In this document: positions 1-58,104 of the stretch, piece by piece
Layout of the letters: each line of letters starts with the position of its first letter
How positions within the stretch are numbered: position 1 is the first letter of the stretch
Source of the DNA: Picosynechococcus sp. PCC 7003
GTDB lineage: Bacteria > Cyanobacteriota > Cyanobacteriia > Cyanobacteriales > MRBY01
NCBI RefSeq assembly: GCF_001693255.1
Contig: NZ_CP016474.1
Coordinates: 1,878,661-1,942,660 of the forward strand
DNA length: 64,000 nt
Reading direction: 5' to 3'
Program-made: the position numbers and the translations under genes
Notes under the pieces: model-generated
What the model saw: the letters and a program-made list of their open reading frames with translations, nothing else
The model's database searches: none
What the model was told of the DNA's origin: nothing

Positions 1-160
1 GTCTTATATTCTGGCGATAGGCGGACTCCCCGGTTCCCGAGGACAAAAATCACGGTCACAAAAAAATACTTTGTATGTGTCTAGCTTGGTTTTCGCTATC
101 CGTTGCCGTGTCAACGATATGATTATAGAGCATTACGCCCCAAGGGGCGGGGATTTCAAC
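1..160 (+). repeat. IS200/IS605-like end, copy A (truncated by window edge)
   Basis: Non-coding stretch that shares two blocks with the minus strand of 31425-31516. Bases 1-25 match that copy at all but one position, and the 16-base block at 82-97 is identical, with similar spacing between blocks. It ends with a perfect 6-bp GC stem with a two-base loop (136-149) followed by GGGATTTCAACC-type sequence. Such a hairpin next to a conserved terminus is what right ends of IS200/IS605 elements, and the 3' ends of TnpB guide RNAs, look like. No transposase gene is present in the visible part. The left end lies outside the window. The repeat is seen directly; the family assignment is inference. Confidence 0.55.
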
Positions 161-228
161 CCTTTGCCGTTAAAAGCGTTGTTCATACGGAGATCCAACA
201 ATGCCCCATAGGGAAAACCAAACCATTC

Positions 229-31246: not shown

Positions 31247-31319
31247 GGATTCCAAATCGGTGCAGAAAAATTATAACTAAACAAAAATAATCCTAAATCT
31301 TCACATTTTAACTGATACG

Positions 31320-31595
31320 AGCGGGCATTCCCCTTCCTCGCACACGGTTTACTGTGACGAGCAGGGAGGGGATGAAAGCGAGTTAGGCTCATGCTACTAT
31401 AAGTTTGCCTTGACCACTTCTCCCTAAGCGAAAACCAAGCTAAACGGGCAGTGTTGCAAGAAAAGAATTTTGGCCTTCGGAACGAGGGTTTTCCGCCTAT
31501 CGCCAGAATGTAAGACTCACTATTCTTCGGAGTAGAAAGCAGTTCTTTGGGTAGAAAGCTCCTTCCTCGCTTTAGCAGGGAGGAGTGGTTCACAC
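31320..31595 (-). mobile_element. Protein-less IS200/IS605-like element, copy B (PATE-like)
   Basis: Read on the minus strand, it begins with a hairpin at 31585-31559 (CTCCTCCCTGC / GCGAGGAAGGAG arms) and ends with a longer hairpin at 31371-31330 whose arms have nearly the same sequence. Between them, blocks at 31516-31492 and 31440-31425 match bases 1-25 and 82-97 of the window (24 of 25, and 16 of 16). About 275 bases in all, no open frame for a transposase. Hairpins near both ends and no inverted terminal repeats fit a derivative of a single-strand-transposing IS200/IS605 element. Exact ends and family are inferred. Confidence 0.6.
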
Positions 31596-31722
31596 ATATC
31601 AGCTCAATATTCGAGCGCGATATCGGTCAAAAAGCCCAAGTCATCTCAATCCCATGGGACTGTCTGATCCTATCGAAGCACTACCTTTTTGGGGCCAACC
31701 CGTAACAAATTCAATCACAAAT

Positions 31723-56898: not shown

Positions 56899-58104
56899 AT
56901 GCTTAACCTGACTTACGAATACAGGCTCTATCCGACGGTCAATCAATCTTCCAAAATGGAGGAATGGCTGGACACGTGCAAGCGCGTCTATAACTACGCC
57001 TTGGCAGAACGTCGTGACTGGATTCAGTCCCGTAAGTGCCCAGTTAATGCTTGTAGTATTCAGCGGGAATTTATTTATCCCATGGATGCGGAAAAACCGA
57101 CTTATTACAGTCAAAAGCGAAATTTGACCGCTGCGCGAAAAGAGAGTCCTTTTCTGCAAAACGTTCATTCTCAAGTGCTCCAGGACGTAATGGGTCGGCT
57201 GGAAAAGGCATTTAACGCCCTGTGGAATAGTGGGTTCGGATTCCCACGGTTTAAGAAGCGTTTTCGCAGCTTTAACTTTCCGCAGTTGGGGAAAAATCCC
57301 ATTGACAGCAATCGAATCAAGCTGCCGGTATTTGGCTGGGTTAAGACCGTAATGCACCGCCCGATCCCTGATGGGTTTGAGGCGAAGCAAGCACGGGTCG
57401 TTAAACGCGCTTCTGGTTGGTATATCCAGCTAGTTATCCAAAGCGACGTTAAAATCCCATATCCTGTCATTGGAGGTCACGCCATCGGGATTGATGTGGG
57501 ATTGACCGATTTTGTTGCGACATCAGACAACGAGTTAATTGCGAGACCCCGATTCTTTGTGGAGGCACAACACAGGCTGAAAGTGCTGAACCGTGCCGTT
57601 GCCAGAAAGCAGAAAGGGTCAAAGAACCAGCAAAAAGCTCGTCAACGAGTCGCAAGATTTTACGAACGAATTGCAAACCGACGTAAAGATTTTCACCGCA
57701 AGCTCGCCCATCATCTCTGTGATCAAGCAGGGATGATATTTGCGGAGGAATTAAACCTAAAAGGACTGGCAAAAGGAATGCTGGGGAAGCATTGTCTGGA
57801 TGCTGGTTGGGGACAATTCCTCGATACGCTTAAATGGGTTTGCTTCAAGCGTGGTGTACATTTCCAAAAAGTTGCCGCCTATGGCACTAGCCAGGAATGC
57901 CCATCCTGTGGAGTAGCGGTGAGGAAAGATTTGTCTGTGCGTCGGCATGAATGCCCGGAATGTGGTTACATCACCAATCGAGATGTGGCTAGCGGACAAG
58001 TGATTCGCAATCGTGGACTAATAGCGGTTGGACAGACCGTTCAATCCTGTGGAGCTACGCCCAGTGGGGAGGCTTTGAAGCAGGAATTTCTTAAGGCGAC
58101 TTAA
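56899..58104 (+). CDS. tnpB: TnpB RNA-guided nuclease of the IS605 family
   Basis: 401 aa. RuvC-like nuclease, the ancestor type of Cas12, guided by the element's right-end (omega) RNA. Catalytic residues are all present: D199 in AIGIDVGLTDF, E283 in FAEELNLKGL and D362 in TNRDVASGQVI. A zinc finger is formed by C334, C337, C352 and C355 (CPSCG...CPECG). The N-terminal YEYRLYPT opening is typical. No frameshift or stop interrupts it, so it may be active. The 3' end runs into the right-end hairpin. Confidence 0.93.
   Translation: MLNLTYEYRLYPTVNQSSKMEEWLDTCKRVYNYALAERRDWIQSRKCPVNACSIQREFIYPMDAEKPTYYSQKRNLTAARKESPFLQNVHSQVLQDVMGRLEKAFNALWNSGFGFPRFKKRFRSFNFPQLGKNPIDSNRIKLPVFGWVKTVMHRPIPDGFEAKQARVVKRASGWYIQLVIQSDVKIPYPVIGGHAIGIDVGLTDFVATSDNELIARPRFFVEAQHRLKVLNRAVARKQKGSKNQQKARQRVARFYERIANRRKDFHRKLAHHLCDQAGMIFAEELNLKGLAKGMLGKHCLDAGWGQFLDTLKWVCFKRGVHFQKVAAYGTSQECPSCGVAVRKDLSVRRHECPECGYITNRDVASGQVIRNRGLIAVGQTVQSCGATPSGEALKQEFLKAT

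Follow-up and report, generated by a model that had tools for sequence, protein, structure and literature searches.

Protein-less palindrome-associated elements with a putative standalone TnpB guide RNA in Picosynechococcus sp. PCC 7003 and other cyanobacteria

Among TnpB guide RNAs, the omegaRNA of ISDra2 is the main reference for the elements described here. In the accessible parts of PMC10097598, it is given a 116-nt scaffold with stem 1, stems 3 and 4, a stem 2 of 4 bp flanked by two non-canonical pairs, and a pseudoknot that joins -5U..-3C with -103A..-105G. TnpB was reported to make its guide RNA out of its own mRNA (available part of PMC10278001) and it was proposed that reRNA-guided TnpB cuts the excision donor joint, with repair restoring the transposon (available part of PMC8612924). 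The latter text also describes insertion after the target without duplication as the mode of IS200/IS605. In parallel, PATEs have been studied as elements without protein, some of which were formed by core deletion according to the passages available of PMC3119063. PATEs and TnpB guide RNAs are each already known. In addition, trans-acting omegaRNA loci are reportedly present for IscB in Ktedonobacter and PATEs are said to lie beside TnpB elements in Geobacillus. By these accounts, the guide RNA loci likewise stand apart from the nuclease gene, and this precedent limits the claim of novelty made below.

The present analysis concerns a 64,000-nucleotide stretch of Picosynechococcus sp. PCC 7003 (NZ_CP016474.1, positions 1,878,661 to 1,942,660), hereafter the window. 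A sequence-only reading had placed a protein-less mobile element with paired hairpins at 31320-31595 and had related it to the left edge of the window through two blocks of the same order and spacing. Both blocks were recovered: window 1-25 equals the reverse complement of 31492-31516 at 24 of 25 positions, the runner-up inverted match of this 25-mer within the window reaching 18 of 25, and window 82-97 equals 31427-31442 at 16 of 16 in inverted orientation. Their order is identical in both copies, while the spacing is similar rather than equal (56 in the left-edge copy and 49 in copy B). The element is real, with a hairpin at each end of copy B in the sequence, and its bounds were corrected to those of Table 1 from the empty site. 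The left-edge relative is real as well and extends past the window, to the left of which it has its right end and predicted guide; in the genome it occupies C1:1878591-1878829 on the minus strand (window -69 to 169). The absence of a transposase also held: the ORF overlapping copy B has no Pfam family and the 16 copies found in this genome are without TnpB by tblastn.

Table 1. Features of copies A and B in window coordinates, with the basis of each assignment
Feature	Position	Strand	Basis
Copy B, complete protein-less element, B type, 282 bp	31312..31593	+	empty site in G002 (PCC 7117)
TTTAA, target of the insertion; predicted target-adjacent motif (TAM) of TnpB	31307..31311	+	adjoins right flank in empty site
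Left-end hairpin of copy B	31330..31371	+	sequence
-10-like box TACTAT, 8 bases ahead of the RNA 5' domain	31395..31400	+	by eye
Putative solo RNA 5' domain: CUUG...CAAG, CAC/GUG, CC/GG stem, AGC/GCU	31409..31460	+	A3 pair counts
Predicted omegaRNA/reRNA scaffold	31474..31593	+	covariance model, pair counts, pseudoknot, fold
Scaffold stem 1, loop GAA 31480-31482	31474-31488	+	
Scaffold stem 2	31496-31499 with 31552-31555	+	one C-A mismatch in copy B
Scaffold stem 4	31559-31585	+	
Scaffold 3' GUUCAC	31588-31593	+	
Predicted pseudoknot, GAA 31480-31482 with UUC 31589-31591	31480..31591	+	partners as in ISDra2
Predicted guide, first 16 right-flank bases	31594..31609	+	guide length from ISDra2 (available part of PMC8612924)
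Copy A (L007), truncated by window edge	1..169	-	empty site in G002
Left-end hairpin of copy A	136-149		
TTTAA target of copy A (TTAAA on +)	170..174	-	empty site

The genome of this strain (G000; 3.35 Mb, three contigs) contains 16 related protein-less elements, hereafter solos, both window copies included. Nine are of A type and three of B type, the others being diverged C and D copies, and the two other B copies are 95% and 83% identical to copy B. This is a multi-copy family and not a duplicated gene fragment, and the genome-wide search that had been suggested found the blocks beyond the window. The sister genome G002 (Picosynechococcus sp. PCC 7117) carries two A, one B and one orthologous C copy. 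In the plasmid collection searched, a single A-type relative was found, on a Planktothrix agardhii plasmid, and no B-type relatives; the viral contigs searched gave no exact match to the 26-base A/B core.

Some copies depart from this organization. A hybrid of ~50 bp (L063, C3:156579-156629) consists of A-family left and right ends only, without RNA scaffold. At C1:1014107 (L066), an A-like left end stands with another core and a right end of TGTCAC type, which makes it possibly a hybrid or a further family. A D-type solo that adjoins a tnpB element (L013/L038, C1:2489395-2489709) has its right-end hairpin split by another palindromic insertion, and the neighbour of the D copy L097 is a tnpB of another family.

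Insertion sites were sought with the joined flanks of eight copies in six genomes of the genus, this one included. The sites of D65, A7 and B1 (three of the eight copies tried, both window copies among them) are empty and continuous in G002 with gaps of at most 1 base, target duplication is absent and the right flank of each copy stands directly 3' of TTTAA. As the right flank begins directly after TTTAA in these three clear cases, the element starts behind TTTAA and ends with TTCAC. For copy B, the empty site runs continuously across TTTAA with a single 1-base gap directly before it and no duplication, and the predicted guide ACATATCAGCTCAATA equals the PCC 7117 empty site after TTTAA in all of its 16 positions but the 15th. 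The A7 site is spanned in G005 too (58 bases, just four of them left of TTTAA), the A12 site in G002 gives a less clean match with 14 extra bases, A10 yields two pieces that are separated by ~240 bases of unrelated sequence, and A4, A8 and B2 have no spanning match in the six genomes. Multiple copies, fixed ends, near-terminal palindromes, IS605-type-related ends and the lack of both protein and target duplication are features shared with the PATEs of PMC3119063, in the part available. The earlier assignment as palindrome-associated and IS200/IS605-derived is strengthened by the copy number, the clean insertion after TTTAA and the similar ends of tnpB elements elsewhere. As for ISDra2 in the accessible part of PMC8612924, the guide is predicted to come from the flank and the target motif is at the left end; by this analogy TTTAA would be the TAM of copy B, the motif given there for ISDra2 being TTGAT.

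The guide-RNA strand of copy B is the plus strand of the window, which puts the right end of the copy at 31593 with the guide 3' of it, and on this strand the right part of the copy corresponds to a tnpB 3' end. By eye, TPACGGNVRP can still be read in one frame of the C-type copy L062, and a longer TnpB-like tail is readable in a D-type copy; a TnpB of the same genome (L027), whose element ends GGGTAGTTCAC, has a similar protein tail. A covariance model of 120 positions (R1), trained solely on 13 protein-less copies, retrieved the 16 solos from the 3.35 Mb genome at E 4.5e-20 or better. Its sole other strong match, C1:2277420-2277559 (E 8e-12), is the 3' end of the intact tnpB C1:2277443-2278633 (L027). 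This TnpB of 397 aa matches ISDra2 TnpB residues 2-374 at E 4e-73, and its segments GIDVGL, VENLN and HDRDIN carry the presumed RuvC D, E and D. Its own RNA scores 61 bits with R1 as against 113-132 for the A/B scaffolds, a clear divergence that makes recognition in trans uncertain. R1 also matched members of a second TnpB family weakly, namely seven solo derivatives (E 0.0087-0.40) and the right ends of its eight tnpB copies (E 0.37-0.67); further weak matches are the minimal C3 copy (E 0.07) and one unexplained place (E 2.3).

The link of the solos to tnpB in this genome was found via structure only. Full-length relatives, which it had been proposed to look for, were identified in other genomes as tnpB loci with similar ends; in this genome, none of the 17 tnpB loci has A or B ends by blastn, L038 merely adjoining a D copy. 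In G238, the tnpB element L227 and the solo L142 have an identical right-end hairpin and similar TTTAAC left ends. Of 20 tnpB loci given to a script, L214 and L223 being one locus, 12 were oriented by it. Right ends are TAGTTCAC, with TACTTCAC in L218. Left ends, read by eye and exclusive of L218 and L223 (ambiguous) and L174 (too short), have TTTAAC before the apparent start in L222 (own genome), L224, L225, L227 and L191, CTTAAC in L226, and TTTAGC, i.e. TTTAG rather than TTTAA, in L189 and L200. The blind match of R1 at an intact tnpB 3' end, along with the ISDra2-like fold and pseudoknot described below, supports the suggestion of a solo guide-RNA end lacking tnpB, and the interpretation that the sequence-only reading gave of the element's nature is supported in large part.

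Judged from sequence comparison, copies A and B are probably protein-less palindrome-associated IS200/IS605 elements whose sole gene would be a TnpB omegaRNA, used in trans to protect the insertion. It is unlikely that they are instead inert deletion derivatives, i.e. PATEs that keep the tnpB 3' end because TnpA needs right-end DNA and in which the RNA is a functionless passenger. The ~50-bp hybrid, which shows that the ends alone suffice for a copy, and the core-deletion PATEs described in Haloquadratum (PMC3119063, in the part available) are in line with such inert derivatives, and the structure of the RNA bears on both views.

This structure was assessed in the alignment A3 of 29 class I sequences, which come from 21 of the 26 class I loci of other genomes and eight of the nine of Picosynechococcus; L128, L135, L140, L162 and L167 (longer RNAs) and L013 (interrupted end) are left out. 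Over 34 named pairs, 96.7% of cells are paired vs 34-49% when slid, 14 pairs are altered on both sides and covariation is 0.288 vs 0.119 shuffled, pair counts that are flattered since the structure was drawn by eye on one row, one helix was moved one column and stem 3, poorly aligned, was dropped post hoc. Further pair types (27) are not above the shuffles (25.1; 88/500). The two-sided changes lie deep inside the element, past any terminal TnpA hairpin, and argue against a passenger RNA, while the ordinary fold energies of single copies agree with one: folded without constraints, copy B forms the same stems at z -1.0, with 33 of 200 shuffles as low.

As in ISDra2, in the accessible parts of PMC8612924 and PMC10097598, a right-end scaffold of ~116-120 bases comprises stem 1, stem 2, stem 4 and a pairing between the 3' end and the stem 1 loop. 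Stem 2 is GCCUAU/GUAGGA in A7, A11, A47, A49, B3 and B51, and in these A copies GUAGGA stands at -36 to -31, the ISDra2 position; all eight letters published for ISDra2 at stem 2 and next to it match the A copies (PMC10097598, same part). One C-A mismatch is present there in B copies 1 and 2, and CCUG/CAGG or CCCA/UGGG is found in other types. The loop triplet can pair with that of the 3' end in 83 of 98 distinct solos (70 GAA/UUC, 7 GGA/UUC and 6 GAG/CUC, the latter a double change in the pseudoknot) and in 19 of 21 tnpB-linked copies. The 15 solos that fail favour inert derivatives, with the reservation that some failures are perhaps mis-picked hairpins, the script having relied on whichever hairpin near the 5' end was best. 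The A7 pseudoknot partner lies one base more 5' than the one given for ISDra2 in the available text. No Rfam family other than a tRNA reaches its gathering score over the window, and nothing convincing was obtained over 11 element-carrying loci. The solo L115 is weakly similar to RAGATH-18 (RF03064; E 2.5, 23 bits vs gathering 44.9), which is not significant, and RAGATH-18 represents reRNAs of IS607 TnpBs, not of IS200/IS605, according to the part available of PMC11061315.

Class I solos, a main class, also have in common a ~52-base 5' domain upstream of the scaffold, with CUUG/CAAG and further short stems, where tnpB-bearing elements carry coding sequence. In A3, one of these stems is CAC/GUG in 20 sequences and CAU/AUG in 9, and the minimum-energy fold of this domain in copy B gives the same stems at an ordinary energy (z -0.46). 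The 16-base block noticed at the outset falls within this domain of copy B and the 25-base block within its scaffold. The 5' domain of A-type copies is different, with an ACACGG/CCGUGA-like stem that seemingly co-varies (ACAUGG/CCAUGA, ACAAGG/CCUUGU) as seen by eye and uncounted. Of 26 distinct class I solos from other genomes, 25 have a TANNNT box 8-10 bases 5' of the domain; shuffled sequences, with 5-10 bases allowed, would give ~8, and the recurrence of this promoter-like box speaks against inert derivatives. ISDra2 RNA, in the source text available, matches the tnpB 3' end and right end; unlike it, solos are without tnpB and their RNA would have its own 5' domain and promoter-like box, which fits with an RNA made without a tnpB mRNA.

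The elements extend well beyond this genus. At E<=1e-4, R1 matches 74 of 386 sampled cyanobacterial genomes and 41 of 142 genera; at least 150 places are listed, 141 of them outside the own genome, and 106 of the 141 were examined. Among the matches listed, 21 of these loci are 3' ends of a same-type tnpB and 85 have no such tnpB upstream, and as R1 was trained on solos its best matches favour solos, so that 85 of 106 is no estimate of the true solo share. L130 was dropped as cut by a contig end, L138 and L165 (G279:C160) are one locus counted once, and L155 was counted as a solo since its TnpB match is solely on the opposite strand. The upstream reach for solos was 1.5-1.7 kb, except in L150 (447 bases), L173 (1263) and L197 (500), and three own-genome TnpBs served as queries, which a distant TnpB could escape. 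The same TnpB type was detected at E<=1e-85 in 64 of 386 genomes: it is present in 38 of 44 genomes with examined solos vs 26 of 342 others, kinship being ignored and G002, which carries both solos and TnpB, being omitted. G061, G066, G095, G107, G299 and G339 have solos and no TnpB of this type at that threshold. Two solos, L115 (G313) and L116 (G238), occupy corresponding sites in two species with an identical guide flank, and L148 (G377) and L196 (G072) have their first 12 guide bases in common.

On a tree of the scaffold with 112 rows (90 solo, 22 linked), 6 label changes were counted vs 20.4 shuffled, and at least 5 are forced by well-supported branches. So few changes suggest that solos had more than one origin, after which they reached other genera and families largely in solo form, and that most are not fresh deletions, which weighs against inert derivatives, though the tree has just 135 columns and many weak forks. 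The wider claim, that cyanobacteria host long-lived RNA-only selfish elements with a standalone TnpB guide RNA, its own promoter and 5' domain, parasitic on TnpA and TnpB and evolving apart from tnpB elements, is in our opinion evenly poised.

For the preferred reading of copies A and B as guide-bearing solos, the sequences show that the ends are defined, that insertion is clean and 3' of TTTAA, that a conserved scaffold of ISDra2 type ends at the boundary and that the flank in guide position matches the empty site. The solo RNA would be transcribed from its own promoter and bound in trans by an ISDra2-like TnpB encoded elsewhere, in this genome that of C1:2277443-2278633. On excision of the element, the complex of TnpB and solo RNA would cut the TTTAA-guide junction, and repair with the sister chromosome as template would then restore the element. 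A self-protecting guide would have to match its empty site, as the right flank of copy B does at 15 of 16 positions. The TnpA for movement may be supplied from elsewhere, as the sequence-only reading had supposed. The only full-profile Y1 TnpA match of the own genome belongs to an element with a different left end and a TTCAT right end, and a TnpA with ends matching the A/B elements was not found in this genome. A second Y1-transposase-like ORF (L045, C1:588943-589116) has a partial weak Pfam match (E 3e-4) and is presumably of the REP-associated (RAYT) kind.

Protection of the insertion may not be the only use of such an RNA. After fixation, some solo RNAs could direct TnpB or an inactive relative, of nuclease-dead TnpB origin, to other sites, for regulation or defence. 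The same guide of L115 and L116 at corresponding sites in two species would suit repurposed guides of this kind, which are nonetheless very improbable, as the right flanks of the three traced copies match the empty insertion site, as self-protection expects, and the near-identical A copies point to recent spread. An IscB/HEARO-type guide RNA on the opposite strand, where the same hairpin comes first and a 5' guide could be accommodated, was rejected as scarcely credible on the grounds that HEARO (RF02033) has no match in the genome at E<=10 and that the tnpB 3' end matches on the chosen strand, PF14239 having no match in the genome either, with its controls silent as well.

The same genome is home to a second, independent tnpB-less family. 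Seven solos (L100, L101, L102, L104, L105, L106 and L110) are deletion derivatives of the second TnpB family in which, apart from the right end, just residues 371-416 of the 416-aa query remain. At the left end they are similar to the tnpB copies of that family, one of which (contig C3) also has tnpA; another copy, L042 at C1:595464, is broken by a frameshift. In the window, 56899-58104 (+) holds a full-length third-family tnpB (L031) whose element ends TATGTCAC, not TAGTTCAC. Finally, a Yfr1-like small RNA was seen at L012:2313-2377 (-), with 36.7 bits vs an Rfam gathering score of 38.

In the titles and abstract openings among the matches listed, no tnpB-less omegaRNA elements are described, absence from print not being claimed. 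A conserved guide RNA and lineages apart from their parents, as proposed here for solos, are not described for PATEs in the available part of PMC3119063. Within the literature searched, what appears to be new is the extent, across many cyanobacteria, of a conserved, tnpB-less putative guide-RNA element with a promoter-like box and its own covarying domain. If the proposal is true, a guide RNA alone suffices to make a transposon stub self-protecting. Three questions would then become testable: whether TnpB serves unlinked loci in trans, how it handles a multitude of guides that compete within a single cell, and by what route guide and nuclease genes can come to be split, as they are in CRISPR-Cas12. 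Natural TnpB/guide pairs that use a TTTAA motif would also become available, and Picosynechococcus strains would offer a ready experiment.
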